From Elainella saxicola E1 (GTDB lineage: Bacteria; Cyanobacteriota; Cyanobacteriia; Elainellales; Elainellaceae): a stretch of DNA of 43,988 nt. Below the pieces are notes generated by a model. It worked only from the letters and a program-made list of their open reading frames with translations. It was not told the origin of the DNA and ran no database searches. The translations under genes and the position numbers were made by a program. Where the stretch lies: assembly GCA_002796835.1 (NCBI GenBank), contig LUGL01000009.1, forward strand, positions 2,483-46,470, in the 5' to 3' direction. This document shows, piece after piece, positions 11,485 through 30,264 of the stretch; positions within the stretch are counted from its first letter, which is position 1; each line of letters opens with the position of its first letter.

Positions 11485-12051
11485 TTAAGCTATCTTCTTG
11501 CCGACTTCTTGCTGATCGACAACCGCCAACAATCGATCGAGACTGGCATTCGGTTCAATAAACGAAAATAAATGGCGAAATTGAATTCGTCCGGTGCGAT
11601 CGATCAGAAATTGTGCGGGCAAAGGTGCGCCTAAAGCCTGACCTACCTGATATCGGCGGAAGGTTCGACAGGTTGAATCACTCAGGAGCGGCATTTTTAG
11701 CTGCAACTCTTGCAAAACCACCTGACTTTGAGAGGGATCGGTGCTGGTGATCAGCAGAACTTCAATGCCTCGCTGCTGTAGCTCTTCGTAGGCTGCATTC
11801 AGCTCCATAATGTGGGGATAGCAGAGGGGACAGTATTGCTTCTCGCTAAAAATCCGGGTGAAGGCAAGCAGCACCCAGGGATGGTGGTTTAGATAGTGAG
11901 TCCAGCTTACTTTCTGGCCGATCGCCACATTCAACAATTCAAATGGTGGTGCAGCGCTGCCGATGGGCAGTTGATTGGTGGCAGGAATGGGTAGAAAATT
12001 TTGCCAAAACCGGCGGTGGAGTAGTCCATCCAATAGTATAGAACTCAACAT
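11485..12051 (-). CDS. Peroxiredoxin-like (AhpC/TSA family) protein
   Basis: A 188-residue thioredoxin-fold protein of the AhpC/TSA-Redoxin type. The fold starts at about 30 (IGSAAPPFELLN). The active-site region reads FTRIFSEKQYCPLCYPHI, with Cys74 and Cys77 forming a CxxC motif where typical peroxiredoxins have a single Thr-x-x-Cys. A later RTGRIQFRHLF strand fits the family. It probably reduces peroxides or disulfides, but the CxxC form means it could be a thiol-disulfide oxidoreductase instead. No lipoprotein Cys or clear export signal is seen, although the first 20 residues are mildly hydrophobic and basic. Confidence 0.72.
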   Translation of the reverse strand: MLSSILLDGLLHRRFWQNFLPIPATNQLPIGSAAPPFELLNVAIGQKVSWTHYLNHHPWVLLAFTRIFSEKQYCPLCYPHIMELNAAYEELQQRGIEVLLITSTDPSQSQVVLQELQLKMPLLSDSTCRTFRRYQVGQALGAPLPAQFLIDRTGRIQFRHLFSFIEPNASLDRLLAVVDQQEVGKKIA

Positions 12052-13038: not shown

Positions 13039-13677
13039 ATGAAAGTCAGATCGATCGGTTCAATTGCTTGCCTAATCACAGTTTATGGATTAGTGAACGT
13101 TTTACCTTGGTCGCAGGTTTGGGCGAAAGAAGAGCAAGAGACGGAAACGACAACCGGGCAAATCATTCCCTATGCCTGTTACGATCGAGCTGGAAATGTA
13201 TCCTACACTACGATTAATCCTCAGGAAACCTTAGGTTGGGAAATGGGATGTCGTGAAGTGCAGTATGAAAGTAGCGAGCCCGACACGACACCGATCGTTT
13301 ATTTCCAGTGCTTTGATGTGAATGGTGGTGTTGCTTTCAATACCATTGATGACGAGGTGGCTGAAGATTCTGGGTTGCCCTGCCGTGAAATCGGTTCGCG
13401 CGTCACCACTCCAGTTCCCTATCGCCCGGTTCACTATGAGTGTTATGACGTCAATGGCGATCTCGCGTTTACGACCAGCTATCCGCAAGACACATTTGGC
13501 TGGAAGCCCGGTTGCCGTGAACTGCAATATCAAGATGAGGCAGTCGCTGCCCAACTGAATCAAACCCCCAGGACGACCTATGAGTGCTTTGATACACGCG
13601 GCAATGTTGTTTTTACCACCTACGATCCGCTAGAGGTCAGACGGTGGAAACTGGGCTGTCGCGAAGTTCACTCATAA
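13039..13677 (+). CDS. Secreted protein of four Cys-paired repeats
   Basis: A 212-residue protein I cannot assign to a named family. An N-terminal signal peptide (hydrophobic 8-27, cleavage plausible after VWA at 29) sends it to the periplasm or outside. The mature part is four copies of a 44-48-residue unit with the pattern Y-x-C-(Y/F)-D-x-x-G-x-(V/L)-x-(F/Y)-x-T, then usually W-x-x-G-C-R-E. The cysteines fall at 47/71, 91/115, 135/159 and 183/207, always 24 apart, so one disulfide per repeat is likely. Repeat 2 is the most divergent. Repeat units of this kind suggest binding or structural use outside the cell. It is followed by the SGNH hydrolase gene 93 nt downstream. Confidence 0.75.
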   Translation: MKVRSIGSIACLITVYGLVNVLPWSQVWAKEEQETETTTGQIIPYACYDRAGNVSYTTINPQETLGWEMGCREVQYESSEPDTTPIVYFQCFDVNGGVAFNTIDDEVAEDSGLPCREIGSRVTTPVPYRPVHYECYDVNGDLAFTTSYPQDTFGWKPGCRELQYQDEAVAAQLNQTPRTTYECFDTRGNVVFTTYDPLEVRRWKLGCREVHS

Positions 13678-13682
13678 TCGCA

Positions 13683-13715
13683 AAGTTACAAATAAGTTAC
13701 AAGTAAATTACAAAT
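13683..13715 (+). promoter_or_regulatory. Three tandem 11-bp direct repeats upstream of the SGNH hydrolase
   Basis: Three adjacent copies of an 11-bp unit, AAGTTACAAAT, AAGTTACAAGT and AAATTACAAAT, end 55 nt before the ATG. One-helical-turn direct repeats are typical of operators for OmpR/PhoB-type regulators. The core differs from the cyanobacterial Pho box as I recall it, so the regulator is not identified. Confidence 0.45.
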
Positions 13716-13770: not shown

Positions 13771-15399
13771 ATGCCCCCTGTTGTCACTCCCGACATGCTT
13801 GATTCAAAAACGCCGCCCGATGTTGTGATCCGGGCTGAAGCTCGCTGTCCTGAAACTGATCCGACGCTGGGAATTCCAGTTCAAATTCAGCGTGAAAATA
13901 CGCCTCGGCATCGGCTTGTGGCGATCGGTGATTCTCTGACTCAAGGCTTCCAGAGCGCTGCCATTTTTAATACATCGCTGTCCTATCCTGCTTTAATTGC
14001 GCAAGAGTTGGGCTGGAAATCCCAGTTTCGGTTTCCGACCTATGGTGGTCCAGGAGATGGTTTGCCGCTGAATCTAGAAAAATTGGTGCGCCTATTGGAG
14101 CAGCGATTTGGCGATACCTTGGACTGGTGGGAGTTTGCCCCCGGTCTGCTGGTGGTCCGCGATTTTCTAGACCAGGTTGAAGACTATTGGGAACGTGGCA
14201 CAGGCAATCTATTTCCTGATCCAAATGGACCAATTAATCACAATTTGGCGGTTTACGGTTGGGATTTGCGAAACACCCTGTCTCGCAACGCAGCGCTATG
14301 TCAGGATGTGATTGACGCCAAACCACCTACCGACGATTTCATCAATCAAATTGTTGAAAATGCGAATGAGCGAGCAGCTCTACGGGTGCTTAATTCGGCC
14401 CGAGATGCCCAGGGACGATCGCTCTCACCCTTACAGGCAGCAGCTGCATTGGCTTTAGAGGGCAGTGTAGAAACAGGGAGTGGTGATGGTATTGAAACGC
14501 TGATCGTGATGATCGGGGCAAACAATGCCTTAGGCAGCATCCTCACCTTTAATGTGGCCTGGAGTGACGCTGGCTATGACGATATGGCTCGCAACGATCG
14601 CTATACGGTCTGGCGTCCGATCCACTTTCAGTCTGAGTGGGATAAAGTGGTTGCCGATCTGAAGAAAATTCCGGCACGGCATGTCATCGTCAGCACAATT
14701 CCCCATGTCACGATCGCGCCTCTGGCCAGGGGGGTAGGACAAAAACAGAAGCCTGGATCGCGCTATTTCCCCTACTACACGTTCCCCTGGCTCGATAATC
14801 AGAGTTTTAATCCCCAGAAGAATCCTTGCATTACGGGGCAAGAAGCTCGCGCGATTGACAGTGCGATCGACCAGTACAACGACTACATTACAAATTCTGT
14901 GAGACAGGCCCGTCAGGAGGGACGCGATTGGTATTTGTTTGAACTGGCCGGCTTGCTCGATCGGGTTGCTCATCGACGCTATCTAGAAGATCCGGCAGCT
15001 CGGCCTTCCTGGTGGGATGCGGTTGGGGGAGCTTATCAGCTTCCGGCAGCTCTGCAAGCGCTTTCTCCTGTGCCAGATTCTCGATTTTTTGAATCCAACA
15101 AAACCGGACGATATCAAGGCGGCATCTTTGCGCTAGACGGAATTCATCCCACGACGATCGGCTATGGCGTGATGGCCCAAGAAGTGATCAAGATTATGCA
15201 GCGAGCCGGGGTCAAATTCTATGGTGCAGATGGCCAAACTGAACGTATGGGTCCTATCGAAATTGATTTTCAACGGTTGATCCAGCGTGACACCCTGATT
15301 TCTAATCCACCTCGATCGCTCTCAAGTGGGCTGAGTTTGATTGGCTGGTTAGACAAAAACTTCAATATTTTTGGGCGCTTCTTGCGATCGAGCATCTGA
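13771..15399 (+). CDS. SGNH/GDSL hydrolase family protein
   Basis: A 542-residue serine esterase-like protein. The nucleophile block is AIGDSLTQGF (Ser55), a GxN block appears as VMIGANNALG (about 245-252), and the Asp/His pair is in LDGIHPTTIGYG (Asp456, His459). Family members cleave esters of lipids or carbohydrates. At over 500 residues it is much longer than a minimal 200-residue GDSL enzyme, with a large insertion between the blocks. There is no obvious signal peptide, so its location is uncertain. GAGGAGAG lies just upstream of the ATG. Tandem 11-bp repeats upstream hint at specific control. The catalytic class is secure; the substrate is unknown. Confidence 0.85.
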   Translation: MPPVVTPDMLDSKTPPDVVIRAEARCPETDPTLGIPVQIQRENTPRHRLVAIGDSLTQGFQSAAIFNTSLSYPALIAQELGWKSQFRFPTYGGPGDGLPLNLEKLVRLLEQRFGDTLDWWEFAPGLLVVRDFLDQVEDYWERGTGNLFPDPNGPINHNLAVYGWDLRNTLSRNAALCQDVIDAKPPTDDFINQIVENANERAALRVLNSARDAQGRSLSPLQAAAALALEGSVETGSGDGIETLIVMIGANNALGSILTFNVAWSDAGYDDMARNDRYTVWRPIHFQSEWDKVVADLKKIPARHVIVSTIPHVTIAPLARGVGQKQKPGSRYFPYYTFPWLDNQSFNPQKNPCITGQEARAIDSAIDQYNDYITNSVRQARQEGRDWYLFELAGLLDRVAHRRYLEDPAARPSWWDAVGGAYQLPAALQALSPVPDSRFFESNKTGRYQGGIFALDGIHPTTIGYGVMAQEVIKIMQRAGVKFYGADGQTERMGPIEIDFQRLIQRDTLISNPPRSLSSGLSLIGWLDKNFNIFGRFLRSSI

Positions 15400-15527: not shown

Positions 15528-16058
15528 ATGGTTTATTGGTGCGATTTAGGAAACAATCAGTCTGTTTATCTTAACGAGCAGGCGGGACAAACGATTGTGA
15601 CGCTTCAATCTGCAAGTCCTGGTCAGCAGCAGCAATCTAGCAGCAGTTTTCAAACCGGTGCTTGGACTGCTCCACCCCAAGCTTTTCAAACCTCTACTGG
15701 AGTTGTGCTGCAACTGCATACGGTCCAGAACGATGTTTGGTTTCAAATTCAAGGAAATGGCATTCATCTATCTCAGCCTCCCTTGCTGCTGAATACTCCA
15801 TCACTGCCAATGCAGCAAGTAGAATCGGCACCTGGCATAGCTCCGTTTCTTCCGATGCAGCCAATGCAGCCGATGCAGCCAATGCAGCCAATGCAGCCAA
15901 TGCAGCCGATGCAAATGGGAAATATGTCAATGAGCTTGCAGCCAATGGAAATGCGGATGGGATCCTCTACATCTGCTGCTCAGTTCTGTCGTCAGTGTGG
16001 TGCTTCGGTTCAGCCAGCCGATCGCTTTTGTACAAAATGTGGGACTCAGTTACAGTGA
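15528..16058 (+). CDS. Zinc-ribbon protein with PMQ tandem repeat
   Basis: A 176-residue protein with three parts. Residues 1-95 form a domain of unknown function starting MVYWCDLGNN, rich in Gln, Ser and Thr. Residues about 110-145 are low complexity, with the triplet Met-Gln-Pro repeated about eight times. The C-terminus is a zinc ribbon with Cys154, Cys157, Cys168 and Cys171 (CxxC-x10-CxxC; FCRQCGASVQ and RFCTKCGTQL). No membrane segment is visible. I do not recognise a function; zinc ribbons of this type usually serve protein or nucleic-acid contacts. Confidence 0.7.
   Translation: MVYWCDLGNNQSVYLNEQAGQTIVTLQSASPGQQQQSSSSFQTGAWTAPPQAFQTSTGVVLQLHTVQNDVWFQIQGNGIHLSQPPLLLNTPSLPMQQVESAPGIAPFLPMQPMQPMQPMQPMQPMQPMQMGNMSMSLQPMEMRMGSSTSAAQFCRQCGASVQPADRFCTKCGTQLQ
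15855..15912 (+). repeat. In-frame 9-bp minisatellite (ATGCAGCCR)
   Basis: About six to seven tandem copies of a 9-bp unit alternate between A and G at the last base, encoding Met-Gln-Pro. The codons are nearly identical, so the array expanded recently at the DNA level and its length may vary between strains. Confidence 0.85.
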
Positions 16059-16123: not shown

Positions 16124-17329
16124 TTATAGTTCTGCCAGGTCACGATTTGGCAAACTGGAAACAGGCTCAAACTCGTTGATTTGCTGTTCCATCTGTAAGG
16201 GTAGAGAAACAGTAACGGTTGTTCCTTTCCCTTCTTGGCTTTCAAAATAGATTTGGCCTTGATGGGTGTCGATGCAGCGTTTTACGACTGCCAGTCCTAA
16301 ACCTGTTCCTTGAATCTGACCAACGTTGCTACAGCGGTAGAAGGTTTTGAACAGGTTGCGTTGACCATCGGCAGGAATACCAATTCCTTCATCCTTAATT
16401 TGGAAAGTAACAAATCGTTCGTTACAGGACAGGTGAAAATCAATCTTTGTATGGCTTGGAGAATATTTGATCGCGTTTGAAAGTAAGTTCGTCAGAATGC
16501 GCCGTAAAAGGACCTGATCGACGCTGACATTATGACAGCAGCCAGCATGGCTAAATGCAATGAGATGTTGATTGTTATCACTCAACTGCAAGGTTTCACA
16601 AATATCCCGACAAAATCTTTCTAACTCAGTGATGGTGGGTTGACAGCTCGTTTTACCGGCTTCAAGGCTGCCAATTAACAGAACTTCATCGAGTAAGTAG
16701 AGCACATGATCGACCGCCGAGTTGACTTTGTCAAAATATCGATCGCGCATTTCACTTGTCAGCGCCTCTCCTCCATACCGCAACAATTCTGTAAACCCCT
16801 GAATACTGGTCAAGGGCGATCGAAAATCATGCGAGATCATGGAAACAAATTCGGATTTGAGCCGATTGAGTTCCTGTTCTTGCTCCAAGGCTTTGAGGGC
16901 GTCTGCCTTTGCTTGCTGCAGTTCTATTTGCATCCGACGCAGCATCAAATGATTTTCGACCCGTGCTAACACTTCTTCAACTTGAAAGGGCTTAGTGATG
17001 TAGTCTACTCCCCCAACCTGAAATGCTTGTACTTTGTCGAGTGGTTCTCCCAGCGCACTCAAGAAAATTACAGGAATATCGCGGGTTTGCTCATCTGCCT
17101 TTAATTGTTGACAAACTTCATAGCCGTTCATCTTCGGCATGTTAATATCCAACAAGATTAGATCCAATGGCACGGTTCGAATCGCCATCAGCGCTACTGA
17201 ACCACTGATCGCACTGCGAACTTCGTACCCTTGTTTGGTCAACATGGACGAGAGTAAGCGCAAGTTGTTAGGGGTGTCATCAACAATCAAAATATTGCCT
17301 TTGACGCCAGTTGGTTGATGCTCGTTCAT
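16124..17329 (-). CDS. REC-HisKA-HATPase histidine kinase
   Basis: A 401-residue soluble kinase with an N-terminal receiver. REC covers about 11-130 (IDD-type acidic pocket VDD, phosphoacceptor Asp61, Lys in ITKPF). A coiled-coil linker (about 130-160) precedes the dimerisation domain with the phospho-His in MISHDFRSPLTS (His167). The ATPase domain (about 270-385) has LLSNAIKYSP (N box), DEGIGIP (G1) and GTGLGLAVVKRC (G2). No membrane segment is present, so input probably comes by phosphorylation of its receiver. Its ATG overlaps the stop of the 1696-residue kinase by 4 nt (ATGA), which implies translational coupling and joint function. Confidence 0.93.
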   Translation of the reverse strand: MNEHQPTGVKGNILIVDDTPNNLRLLSSMLTKQGYEVRSAISGSVALMAIRTVPLDLILLDINMPKMNGYEVCQQLKADEQTRDIPVIFLSALGEPLDKVQAFQVGGVDYITKPFQVEEVLARVENHLMLRRMQIELQQAKADALKALEQEQELNRLKSEFVSMISHDFRSPLTSIQGFTELLRYGGEALTSEMRDRYFDKVNSAVDHVLYLLDEVLLIGSLEAGKTSCQPTITELERFCRDICETLQLSDNNQHLIAFSHAGCCHNVSVDQVLLRRILTNLLSNAIKYSPSHTKIDFHLSCNERFVTFQIKDEGIGIPADGQRNLFKTFYRCSNVGQIQGTGLGLAVVKRCIDTHQGQIYFESQEGKGTTVTVSLPLQMEQQINEFEPVSSLPNRDLAEL

Positions 17330-20300
17330 TGCATGTGGAACTTGGCTAATTCAATAATGTCTTCAAAGCGAAAGTCATAAACCAATTCTTCTAAGCTTTC
17401 GGCGAGGTTGTGATAAGTCGCAGGGATTTGCTCAAGCAATTGCAGCACTTGACGATCGCTACATCCACTCGCTGCTTGATAGAGTCTAGCAATCCACTCG
17501 GCAGACATAACTGTGAGATCGGCTGGAGCTAGCTTGGGGGGAAGTGAAATGGATTCTTCCTCCCCATATATGCAGTGTAACCCTAGTTGCTCAGCTCGCT
17601 GGGTAAAAATTTCTTCCCTTACCGGAATTTCAAATTCAAATACAGAACCTTCACCCGGGACACTCCGAACTTGTAGCTTACCTCCCATTAACTGGACGAA
17701 TCGATCGCTGATAGCCAACCCAAGTCCTGTCCCCCGATTGGATTGTCGTCCTGATTCCGTTTGGACAAATGCTTCAAACAACGAAGCCATTTCTTCTGGC
17801 GCAATCCCAAATCCAGTATCCTCAACTTCAAAGCGCAACGCGACGACAAAATCTGCATCTTCGTGGGTGCTACACTGAACCCGCAGGTTGACCTGACCCT
17901 TGTCCGTAAATTTAATCGCGTTATCTAACAAATTCAGCAACACTTGACGCAACTTGCCTTGGTCTGCCTTGATCTGTTGGGGGACGTTGTCTGCAATATC
18001 AACTGTTAACTGGAGCTGCTTTTCGGCAGCCGGAATTCGTAACATTTCTCTAAGATTCTCCACCAGCTCACGCAGGTCAAAGCTGTTTTCTTGTAAACTG
18101 GCCCGATCGGCTTCTAATCTTGATATTTCTAGAACTTCGTTAATCAATTCCAGTAGGTGTTGACCACTGTGATCGATGATGTGGAGATATTCCCGATGCT
18201 CTGGATTCAGTTCGGCCTCTTGGTTAATCAGTTGAGTGAAGCCAAGAATGGAATTGAGCGGGGTTCGGAGTTCGTGACTCATGTTAGCGAGAAACTGAGT
18301 TTTCGCCCGATTTGCTGCTTCAGCTTCATCTCTTGCCTTCTTCAAATCCTCAGACTGTTGTTGAGTTTGAATTAACAGGTCAGCTTGCTGGATGGCTACT
18401 CCTAGCTGGGTACTAATGTGAGTCACTAAATGGATTTCACCAGGTAACCAGTCACGAAAATCAGAATTTTCATAGGCAGCGAGTAATCCCCAAAGACGAT
18501 TCCCCTGAAAAATTGGCACAGTCAAGTAGGCTTTTGTTTGCAGTTTTTCAAGCAATTCTAAGTAGCAGGCAGAAAATTTTTCCTGGTAAATATTGGATAC
18601 ACAAAGATATTTTGCCCCTTGGCTATAAGCGCCGCCTTGCGTTTCCTGGAGATAGGTGTCGTAGACCTGGGCCTCCTGCTCCCACACTTTGACAGTACAG
18701 CGATCGCCGTTAATTGCTTGCGACAAGAACCCAGAATATGTAGGCGTAGGCTCCAATACCGCATTCCATCCTGCTGCGACTGATTCTGCGACACAACAAC
18801 CACTCCAATCAGGGTTGAAGCGATAGAGCAAGACGCGATCGCATTGCAGGAGTTGCCGGAGCTCCTCCGTCGTGGCCCGAAAAATTTGCTCAATTTCTAA
18901 GGTTTGCCGCATGCGTTCAATCACCCGCAATGTCGCCTGTTCTCGTGCGGCACTCTGTCTCAAGGCATCTTCTGCGCTTTTTCGCTCACAGTGTAAAGCG
19001 ATCGCCGATACTGCAGTGTTGAGGAGACTAACATCCAAGGCATCCCACTGATGGGATTGAGCACAACTCTCGAAACCAACAAACCCCCAGAGTTTGCCAT
19101 TTACCATTAACGGTAAGATCAGGATTGATAAAATTCCTTGGGCAGCTAAAAATGCCTGTTCTGATTCAGACAGCTTTTCAACGGCGTCGCCAATGGCTTG
19201 TCCTTCCGTTAAGTATTGCATCCATTGCGCATAGTTTGCTTCTGATAGACATTCGGGTAGAGCGGACTGATGGGCTGGCAACTGGTGGACTAGCAGATGG
19301 CTCTCTGCATTCCAGACGGCTCGTTGAATCAGCGAGGCCTGACTCATTTCGGCACGGGTTTCGTAAAGATACACCCTGGATGCAGCAGCAACCTGTCCCA
19401 ACAGTTGCAAAATCTCGTGATATTGAATTGGCTGCTCTCGGAATGTTAACAGTTCATGCTGGACTTCGACGAGCACCGCCAGAAACCGTTCTCGTTTGGC
19501 TAATGCCTGTTCCACCTGTTTGCGATCGCTAATGTCTCTTGCCACGATCAGGACAGAATCTTCAGATAGCGGCGAAATACTGGAGGACAAGCAGACTTCA
19601 CGATCTTGCTGCTGCAAAGTGTATTCCAAATTCACTGGGGTGCGTAGGGCAAGACTGGTTTGAATGCTCTGCAACACTCGGTTGGCGATCGGAATCGGTA
19701 ATGTTTCGTGGAGTGTTTTACCTAAAATGCTAGCTGCCGGTTTAGACAAGGTTGGGTTCGTTGAGGCGACCTTGAGGCATTGTCCTTTAGCATCCCGCAC
19801 GAGGACCACATCGTTCATGGCGGTGAACAAAGCTCGTAATTCAGCTTCTGCTTGTTTCTGGGCTAAAACACTGCCTAATTGGGCTGCCACAGCAGAAACA
19901 ACCTGAATTAAACGCTGATCTTGTTGCCGTGCCTCAATGGTGAAGAAAACGAGTACAGCAAGCACTGCAGGATGATTCTGGCCACTAACGGAAAGATTGT
20001 CTAGCTGCGTATTGCGATCGCGAGTGACTGTAATGGGGACTCCTAGTCGAGCTTTGATGCCATAGTGATTCACTAACTGGAAGCGATATTGGCTTTGATG
20101 CCCGGTCAAGACGAATGCGGGGCTAGTTTTATCTTCCACATCCAGAGTCCATTCTGGTTGTTGTTGAGCCCAAACCCGTCCAGCAATTCCTTCATGCGGT
20201 TGAAAAGTGACGTTGTGATAGGACTGACGCAAATGCTGCACCGAAGCTAGCACCGCAGGAGATTGCTCAATCCGGTTGCAATACCAAACAGGACTACATT

Positions 20301-22416
20301 CCAAAACACAACCATCGGCAGAAGGTAGCCAAACTTCTCCATAAGTCCAACCTGTTGCTTCACACAATCCCTCTACGGCTGCTTGCAAGGCTTGCGTGAA
20401 ATCAGGCGCTGCAGTAATTGCTTGAGTGATATCGAGCAAGAGCTGAACTTCTTCTTCAGCCTGGTGTTGTTTTGCATTCACCTGATGGACGCTAATAAAC
20501 TTTCCAATACTTTGAGCCATCAGCTCAATAATCTCTTGCTCGTGGTTTTGATATCCCTGCAAGCGGGGTCGGTCGGCAAAGAAACAGAGTGTTCCATAAA
20601 TTTCACCGTCTACCCAAATTGGAGTGCCTATGTAGGAGTTGACCTGGAGATTGGGCAAGCAGGATTGGAGGAATGTTTTATCTAAAAAGTCAGTGTGCTG
20701 ATAGCCCATTGTTTGCTGGGTTTGGACCACAGCTTGACAATAAGTATTTTGCAAACTGGCTTCGATGCCAGACAGCAGGCAGGAGCCATTAAAATATCCT
20801 GTTAAAACTCGATAAGACAATCCCTCAATACGACTGATAATGCCAGAGGAGAATCCCAAGATTTCACAACCTGTCTTGAGATAATCTGTACAGAGTTCTT
20901 CGATCGTCTCAAAATCAGTCAAGCCCAACCGATGGAGCTGCTTGAGATTGTTGCTGAACTCACTCAAAGCCAGTGATTTATTCAACAGTTCTGCTTCTGC
21001 TTGTTTGCGAGCAGTAATGTCCCGTGCGACCCAAATGACGGTATCATTGCCGCTTGGAGAAATCTTGGCGCTAAACCAAACAATTCGTTTGTCGATCAAC
21101 AGGTCATATTCACACTCAACCGATTGCCGAGAATCTAAACTAGCTTGGATGTAGCTCAGAAACTGATCGGCTTGATCGATCGGAAAAATCTCATGCAGCG
21201 TTTTTCCAAGTAAACATTCTGGCGGCATGTAGAAGTTATTGTGGTTTGTCGGCGCAATTTTGAGATATTTGCCCTTGTGATCCAACACCAGAATGACATC
21301 CGACATCGCAGCAAACAGATCTCTTAGTTCTGTTTCAGAGTCTTGTAATGCCGCTTCAATCTGACGTCGTTCACAAATTTCCTGGCGTAAGATCAAATTT
21401 TGATATTCTAGAGCCTCTAGTTGTTTTTGCTCTTGATCGATAGACTTTGCTTGGGCCAAAGCAATTCCCAATTGATCTGCGATTGCTTCTAATAATGCAA
21501 TTTCTTCAGAGGTCCAAATGCGTTGGCGATCGCATTGTTGTAGCATCAGTACCCCATTAGCCTGATTATGATAAGCCGTCCGAACTGCCACCAACGACTG
21601 CATATGGGTTAGATGACACAGGCTCTGAATGGATGCCAGTCGATCGTCTTGATAAACATTAATAGAGACTAATGCTCGGTCTTGAGATAACACCTCAGGG
21701 ATAAATAAGTTATCTTCTAATGCAAAGTCAAGTTGCCGCATGGATACACAACTAGGCACCGTATATTCCGCAATCAGTGGAATCTCAGGAATTGGAGGGG
21801 GTACATAAATATGAAGTGAGCATCGACTAACCTGCAAGACCTGCCCAATCTGCTTAACTACGGTTTCAAAAATAGATTGACCATCGAGCTGTGAGCAAAT
21901 TAATTCGGTAATTTGCTGGATTAATAGCGTTCTTTGAAACTGTTGTTCTAGTAATTGTTCAGCTTGTTCTCGCTGACAAACTGCTTGCTGTAGACGAAGA
22001 TTCTGTTCAATTAACTGTTTCTGTAACCGCTGAATATTGAGCTGATTCTCGATTCTTGCAACGACCTCTTCCGAGTGGAAAGGTTTTGTGATGTAATCAG
22101 CCCCCCCAGCGCTAAAAGCTTTTACTTTATCTAGGGCATCTCCTAAAGCACTAATAAAGATAACTGGAATATTGCGAGTGCGATTATCAGCTTTGAGAAT
22201 TTGGCAAACTTCGTACCCGTCCCGATCGGGCATTTTGACATCTAGCAGAATCAAATCTGGTAATTTCGCCTGAATTGTCTTTAAGGCAAAATTGACGCTA
22301 GGGGAAAACCGCACTTGATAACCCTTGCCAGCCAAAAGCCGCGCCAACAAACGAAGATTGGCTGGAGTATCATCAATAACCAAGATACTTTCTTTCGGAG
22401 TCAGGATTTGTTGCAT
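17326..22416 (-). CDS. Giant multi-GAF/PAS histidine kinase with N-terminal receiver
   Basis: A 1696-residue cytoplasmic sensor kinase. Order: REC (8-125, Asp59), coiled coil, GAF1 (about 165-325), PAS1 (357-470), GAF2 (500-640), GAF3 (665-845), PAS2 (855-970), GAF4 (985-1150), GAF5 (1165-1345), HisKA with MSHELRTPLNS (His1381), HATPase (about 1483-1600; LLDNAIKFT, DTGFGIAP, GTGLGLAIS), and a tail of about 90 residues. GAF5 resembles bilin-binding phytochrome/cyanobacteriochrome GAF domains; the usual Cys is kept (Cys1284) but is followed by Tyr rather than His, so bilin binding is uncertain. PAS and GAF domains usually bind small molecules or sense light or redox state. It is the first gene of a two-gene operon with the 401-residue kinase. 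Confidence 0.92.
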   Translation of the reverse strand: MQQILTPKESILVIDDTPANLRLLARLLAGKGYQVRFSPSVNFALKTIQAKLPDLILLDVKMPDRDGYEVCQILKADNRTRNIPVIFISALGDALDKVKAFSAGGADYITKPFHSEEVVARIENQLNIQRLQKQLIEQNLRLQQAVCQREQAEQLLEQQFQRTLLIQQITELICSQLDGQSIFETVVKQIGQVLQVSRCSLHIYVPPPIPEIPLIAEYTVPSCVSMRQLDFALEDNLFIPEVLSQDRALVSINVYQDDRLASIQSLCHLTHMQSLVAVRTAYHNQANGVLMLQQCDRQRIWTSEEIALLEAIADQLGIALAQAKSIDQEQKQLEALEYQNLILRQEICERRQIEAALQDSETELRDLFAAMSDVILVLDHKGKYLKIAPTNHNNFYMPPECLLGKTLHEIFPIDQADQFLSYIQASLDSRQSVECEYDLLIDKRIVWFSAKISPSGNDTVIWVARDITARKQAEAELLNKSLALSEFSNNLKQLHRLGLTDFETIEELCTDYLKTGCEILGFSSGIISRIEGLSYRVLTGYFNGSCLLSGIEASLQNTYCQAVVQTQQTMGYQHTDFLDKTFLQSCLPNLQVNSYIGTPIWVDGEIYGTLCFFADRPRLQGYQNHEQEIIELMAQSIGKFISVHQVNAKQHQAEEEVQLLLDITQAITAAPDFTQALQAAVEGLCEATGWTYGEVWLPSADGCVLECSPVWYCNRIEQSPAVLASVQHLRQSYHNVTFQPHEGIAGRVWAQQQPEWTLDVEDKTSPAFVLTGHQSQYRFQLVNHYGIKARLGVPITVTRDRNTQLDNLSVSGQNHPAVLAVLVFFTIEARQQDQRLIQVVSAVAAQLGSVLAQKQAEAELRALFTAMNDVVLVRDAKGQCLKVASTNPTLSKPAASILGKTLHETLPIPIANRVLQSIQTSLALRTPVNLEYTLQQQDREVCLSSSISPLSEDSVLIVARDISDRKQVEQALAKRERFLAVLVEVQHELLTFREQPIQYHEILQLLGQVAAASRVYLYETRAEMSQASLIQRAVWNAESHLLVHQLPAHQSALPECLSEANYAQWMQYLTEGQAIGDAVEKLSESEQAFLAAQGILSILILPLMVNGKLWGFVGFESCAQSHQWDALDVSLLNTAVSAIALHCERKSAEDALRQSAAREQATLRVIERMRQTLEIEQIFRATTEELRQLLQCDRVLLYRFNPDWSGCCVAESVAAGWNAVLEPTPTYSGFLSQAINGDRCTVKVWEQEAQVYDTYLQETQGGAYSQGAKYLCVSNIYQEKFSACYLELLEKLQTKAYLTVPIFQGNRLWGLLAAYENSDFRDWLPGEIHLVTHISTQLGVAIQQADLLIQTQQQSEDLKKARDEAEAANRAKTQFLANMSHELRTPLNSILGFTQLINQEAELNPEHREYLHIIDHSGQHLLELINEVLEISRLEADRASLQENSFDLRELVENLREMLRIPAAEKQLQLTVDIADNVPQQIKADQGKLRQVLLNLLDNAIKFTDKGQVNLRVQCSTHEDADFVVALRFEVEDTGFGIAPEEMASLFEAFVQTESGRQSNRGTGLGLAISDRFVQLMGGKLQVRSVPGEGSVFEFEIPVREEIFTQRAEQLGLHCIYGEEESISLPPKLAPADLTVMSAEWIARLYQAASGCSDRQVLQLLEQIPATYHNLAESLEELVYDFRFEDIIELAKFHMQ

Positions 22417-30191: not shown

Positions 30192-30199
30192 CTTTATAT

Positions 30200-30264
30200 A
30201 TAGAGCTGAGAGATATGTAGAGCTGAGAGATATGTAGAGCTGAGAGATATGTAGAGCTGAGAGG
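30200..30264 (+). repeat. 17-bp tandem repeat, about 3.8 copies
   Basis: The unit GTAGAGCTGAGAGATAT occurs at 30217-30233 and 30234-30250, with a one-base variant at 30200-30216 and a partial copy at 30251-30264. The copies are contiguous with no spacers. The unit length differs from the 7-bp STRR and 37-bp LTRR repeats known in filamentous cyanobacteria. Confidence 0.95.

Follow-up and report, generated by a model that had tools for sequence, protein, structure and literature searches.

A conserved Cys-paired tandem repeat in a putative exported protein of Elainella saxicola E1 and related cyanobacteria

Results

The window, that is, the whole stretch of 43,988 nucleotides analysed from Elainella saxicola E1 (contig LUGL01000009.1), contains a gene whose product is built from repeats with paired cysteines (Table 1). 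The coordinates, strand, length and four cysteine pairs that an earlier note had given for it were all borne out. Read by eye, residues 1-29 comprise a basic start, a hydrophobic core and the sequence V-W-A; a lipobox was not found by eye at the start of the protein, which thus does not read as a lipoprotein. The protein had been described as secreted and extracellular. Its signal-like start agrees with secretion but fits a periplasmic or thylakoid-lumenal location as well as an extracellular one. A ninth cysteine, Cys11, lies inside the hydrophobic signal-like region and outside the repeat pattern, and has no counterpart at that position in any homologue; one of these, L008, has a cysteine at residue 8. 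For residues 31-212 we computed a pI of 4.3 and a Lys content of 1.1%.

Table 1. The Cys-repeat gene and the parts of its product, in window coordinates
Feature	Position	Strand	Basis
Cys-repeat gene, 212 aa, stop included	13039..13677	+	ORF; homologues found in 9 of the family's 36 genomes; purifying selection, as judged from dN/dS, in the pairs computed
Putative signal peptide, residues 1-29, signal peptidase I type, cleavage after V-W-A	13039..13125	+	Read by eye
Repeat 1, Cys47/Cys71	13156..13272	+
Repeat 2, Cys91/Cys115; most divergent, lacks the P-Q-x-T-x-G-W stretch	13288..13404	+
Repeat 3, Cys135/Cys159; beta-beta-alpha-beta in the predicted single-repeat model	13420..13536	+
Repeat 4, Cys183/Cys207; missing in three-repeat homologues	13564..13674	+

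The unit of about 39 (roughly 40) residues, present in four copies in the window protein, has the consensus [YF]-x-C-[YF]-D-x-x-G for its core, [FY]-x-T in strand 2 and C-R-E at the second Cys. The core Y-x-C-(Y/F)-D-x-x-G of the earlier note therefore holds for the most part, but repeat 2 begins with F-Q-C and widens its first position. When residues 30-212 were shuffled 200,000 times, at least four Cys pairs spaced by 24 residues arose five times and four C[YF]DxxG motifs never; the real sequence has five such pairs (the four within repeats and 159/183) and four such motifs. At the DNA level the repeats of the window are just 47-58% alike over 111 bases, and they are thus not recent copies of one another. 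A scan for promoters and terminators returned one promoter-like site, against 1.7 expected, and no terminator-like site.

Homologues of the Cys-repeat protein were found in 9 of the 36 genomes of the cyanobacterial family, representing 4 of its 21 genera. The order-level search covered the identical 36 genomes, and a search of the class, in which at most 7 candidates were scored per listed genome, matched 9 of 388 genomes, all of them the same nine carriers. A sample of 386 genomes from the phylum (at most 19 candidates scored) gave matches in the E. saxicola genome itself and in G423 alone, so that either the sample did not include the remaining carriers or the search overlooked them; the G423 match spans 14 positions (E 0.005) and was treated as chance. 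A scan of genome contigs, whose reach is close relatives, named three carriers among MAGs: Elainella sp. Prado103, Pegethrix bostrychoides and an uncultured cyanobacterium. No match was obtained in 27 of the 36 family genomes, nor in the congener G003, which is 91% complete; the protein is therefore not needed by the whole group. Tblastn searches of plasmids and phages found no match to the protein, and none of 25 pattern matches in viral contigs was confirmed as the Cys repeat. We also treated as chance the matches in three family genomes without the protein (E 0.01-0.03), one of which falls within a 716-aa ORF lacking the repeat, and six extra weak matches in the E. saxicola genome (E 0.1-2.5), four of which were scanned for the T...CRE pattern and two of these four, at contig starts, translated. 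Judged by these sequence searches, this is an orphan protein family, confined to one cyanobacterial family as far as examined.

Five of the nine genomes, including E. saxicola E1, encode four repeats and the other four encode three, which align with positions 1-3. Both cysteines are kept in every one of the 32 repeats (64/64), as located by a pattern that itself contains Cys; a profile search recovered the identical 32, from which the profile had been built. Outside the signal-like regions, all cysteines of the nine genomes fall within such pairs. The spacing, which had been claimed to be 24 residues always, is indeed so throughout the window protein but not across the genomes: it is 24 in 29 of the 32 repeats and 23 in three, each of these a repeat 2 from a single genus. 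Cys8, Gly13, Thr19 and Cys32 of the repeat alignment are invariant and Arg33 nearly so. (Of the profiles used, A1 was made from 7 of the 9 homologues, A3 from 20 of the 32 repeats, and A4 and A5 from all 32.)

Between genomes, repeats of corresponding position share a mean identity of 61% (118 pairs, lowest 37%), compared with 35% for repeats inside one protein (42 pairs, highest 47%), the two ranges overlapping. In a FastTree phylogeny, the repeats of positions 2, 3 and 4 form clades with local support of 0.95, 0.87 and 0.74. Because of these clades and the higher same-position identity, the duplications that gave rise to the repeats probably predate the split of the carrier genera. We calculated dN/dS for 5 of the 36 possible pairs of homologues and obtained about 0.09, 0.13, 0.14 and 0.22 in four, three of which are intra-genus pairs and hence not independent; in the fifth, the window gene against L001, synonymous sites were saturated. 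By this measure, the Cys-repeat gene is under purifying selection in the pairs computed.

No Pfam family scored above its cut-off, where cut-offs were given, for the window protein or the seven homologues scanned, and NCBIfam returned no match for the window protein. Sequences of the PDB gave no match to the window protein up to E 10 and three to the repeat profile, none significant (best E 0.52 over 13 positions); of these we rejected N-acetylneuraminate lyase and a short-chain dehydrogenase as chance. Likewise rejected as chance were Diphtheria_R, matched by two of seven homologues (best 14.5 bits, cut-off 25), and PHROGs matches with a best E of 0.01. When the 32 repeats were compared with Pfam in isolation, three families were matched; two of them, the unrelated TNP-like_GBD (2/32, best E 0.0053) and DUF348 (1/32, E 0.18), were dismissed on the same grounds. 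No publication about such a Cys-paired repeat was found in the literature searched.

AlphaFold2 modelled repeat 3 alone, from the 32-repeat alignment, with a pLDDT of 83.5 and a pTM of 0.51, placing strands at 5-9, 15-19 and 31-35, a helical turn at 22-25, Cys8 on strand 1 and Cys32 on strand 3. The full-length model, for which seven homologues were aligned, reached a mean pLDDT of 61.6 and a pTM of 0.38; at this low confidence it has the order strand, strand, short helix, strand in every repeat, and being poor it allows no placement of the modules. Conservation in nine genomes and the model of the single repeat both speak for a small Cys-paired module used in tandem, as proposed, but the predicted unit is beta-beta-alpha-beta rather than all-beta. 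As the model puts the two cysteines on strands 1 and 3, one intra-repeat disulfide per unit is likely. The genome encodes a homologue of VKOR, of the disulfide oxidase type (110.7 bits, cut-off 27.5). Fold searches of the PDB gave a best Z of 2.5 with the low-confidence full model and 2.0 with the small repeat model, and a viral fold search gave, up to E 10, 315 matches, all of them with E above 0.001.

A co-directional gene for a GDSL hydrolase (13771-15399) starts 93 bases beyond the Cys-repeat gene, an order also present in L030, the closest relative. When 13 ORFs of the window were compared with the neighbourhoods of eight relatives, the next genes (at 13771, 15528, 16124 and 17326) were kept in L030 alone; L032 and other places in L030 have kinase-like matches too. 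The scan of the other seven genomes covered 18 of 32 flanking ORFs, a set that leaves out the immediate neighbours L033:7787-8200 and L034:8618-8956. Among these 18 there was no neighbour common to all four genera and no ligand or partner for the Cys-repeat protein. What recurs near the repeat gene does so within narrower limits: a squalene/phytoene synthase gene in L029 and L031 (same genus), DUF1822 in L034 and L035 (one genus), glycosyltransferases in L035 and L036 (one genus), and an adjoining, convergent tetrapyrrole methylase gene on the opposite strand in two genera (L031:3500-4306 and L032:6489-7295). Further neighbours are an NADH dehydrogenase subunit, MFS transporters (MFS-type genes in L033 and L034), a 1-Cys peroxiredoxin, a phosphoribosyltransferase and GHL10, and indicate no common partner.

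The window holds several other repetitive or paired elements. Five bases past the stop codon of the Cys-repeat gene and before the GDSL-hydrolase gene, three tandem copies of the 11-base unit AAGTTACAAAT (86% matches) occupy 13683-13715; as a guess, their 11-base phasing could be that of a regulator's direct-repeat site. The ORF at 15528-16058 (176 aa) carries a tandem Met-Gln-Pro array, made of 9/18-base units at 15852-15913, followed by a C-terminal zinc ribbon. On the minus strand, neighbouring ORFs of 401 and 1696 aa (16124-22416) read by eye as response-regulator/histidine-kinase hybrids; they overlap by four bases at stop and start (17326-17329), and the pair is kept in L030. Four near-perfect copies of a 17-base unit (98% matches) lie at 30196-30263, between ORFs of at least 100 aa.

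Discussion

The reading that we favour, and which taken whole we hold to be somewhat probable, is that of an exported, non-lipidated string of disulfide-stapled modules, oxidised by VKOR, that serves as a non-enzymatic envelope protein for multivalent binding or scaffolding. A signal of the signal peptidase I type would export the protein without lipidation. Outside the cytoplasm it would fold into three or four small beta-beta-alpha-beta modules, each stapled by a single disulfide from the strand 1 Cys to the strand 3 Cys, and the VKOR-type oxidase of the genome would probably make these bonds. The acidic (pI about 4.3) and Lys-poor product would then most likely act as a stable multivalent binding or scaffold protein, whether in the periplasm, on the outer surface or in a sheath. 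Around the predicted fold we infer export, disulfides, compartment and binding role; for the last, the signal-like start, conserved Cys pairs, predicted stapled modules, variable copy number of a conserved module and lack of any enzyme-family match in the searches together suggest binding or scaffolding.

Two other functions deserve weighing. The Cys pairs might be redox-active or metal-binding, in a periplasmic thiol or metal-buffer protein, given that each module has two invariant cysteines and that genes of the AhpC/TSA type lie near the repeat gene both in the window (11485-12051) and in L033. The AhpC/TSA gene of the window, however, finds no counterpart in L033 at E 1e-5. Both cysteines are predicted to lie on beta strands, and neither CxxC-type spacing nor a conserved His or extra Cys is seen in the modules; we hold such a function to be improbable. 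Small disulfide-stapled units are often inhibitors or antimicrobial or defence proteins, and a signal-like start, Cys-paired repeats and a patchy distribution would suit a secreted protein of that kind put to lineage-specific use. Its sequence is conserved, not diversified, and no immunity-like or transporter partner recurs across genera in the scan of 18 of the 32 flanking ORFs; we consider an inhibitor or defence role, if anything, slightly more improbable still than the thiol or metal one. A multivalent binding or scaffold protein remains our preferred reading.

As to ancestry, one alternative starts from DUF4124 (PF13511), a short domain that sits close to the N-terminus in exported proteins of Pseudomonadota. 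The Cys repeat could be a remote, tandemly duplicated, Cys-stapled offshoot of it that shares the first hairpin, Y-x-[W/C]-x-D-x-x-G-x-x-x-[FY], and adds a helix and a third strand bearing the second Cys. DUF4124 is the sole Pfam match of the window protein (8.7 bits, E 2.8), and the homologue L010 scores 20.6 bits against it (E 0.00053). Aligned by hhalign with four DUF4124 sequences, the 32-repeat profile gave E 0.0033 over 13 columns (probability 9.75), and E 0.0019 with the mature part (probability 14.1); the alignment score was reached by 1 of 200 column shuffles. An Aeromonas member, L042, has Y-x-C at the matching place of strand 1, its second Cys following 13 residues later. Yet every score lies under the curated Pfam gathering cut-off of 22 bits, and the match extends to two of seven homologues, no more than for the unrelated, if lower-scoring, Diphtheria_R. 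Two of 32 isolated repeats match DUF4124 with a best E of 0.14, worse than the unrelated TNP-like_GBD, and among 20 relatives, which do not include the genome of L010, none exceeds the cut-off and one has a weak match of 16.9 bits. The comparison set comprised just four sequences, the hhalign probability is low and covers the hairpin alone, and the hairpin could be convergent; its core, Y-x-x-x-D-x-x-G-x-x-x-[FY], is present in the repeat but as a short motif is weak by itself. We therefore regard remote kinship with DUF4124 as possible but doubtful.

The idea of an undescribed domain accordingly stands in so far as no family scored above its cut-off where one was shown, but is qualified by this faint, sub-threshold resemblance, through which the "unknown family" may prove to be a remote DUF4124 offshoot. 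There is nearly an even chance, in our estimate, that the repeat is an undescribed beta-beta-alpha-beta disulfide module of about 39 residues, born in one cyanobacterial family and multiplied in tandem before the genera of that family diverged, to yield a rigid multivalent secreted protein. If so, a small disulfide-stapled module would join the known extracytoplasmic domains of bacteria, and it would offer a possible example of a DUF4124-like hairpin elaborated into a tandem repeat. The protein family is of value for its testable fold and for its nine natural variants, which have three or four units.

Among DUF4124 proteins, TfpC of Neisseria gonorrhoeae maintains type IV pili and consists of a transmembrane helix, a Pro-rich stretch and a C-terminal helical domain, according to the available part of its description (PMC7593972), in which the word "cysteine" has no occurrence. 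As an exported envelope protein, it resembles the Cys-repeat protein through the DUF4124 likeness alone, and its pilus function cannot be transferred. With DUF4124 itself, the Cys-repeat protein has in common a signal-like start and the hairpin and, with L042, the position of the Cys in strand 1. Each of the four DUF4124 ORFs examined has a single copy of the domain, near the N-terminus, whereas the Cys repeat stands in tandem, is extended by a helix and a third strand (both predicted), and has its second Cys 23-24 residues on rather than 13 as in L042.
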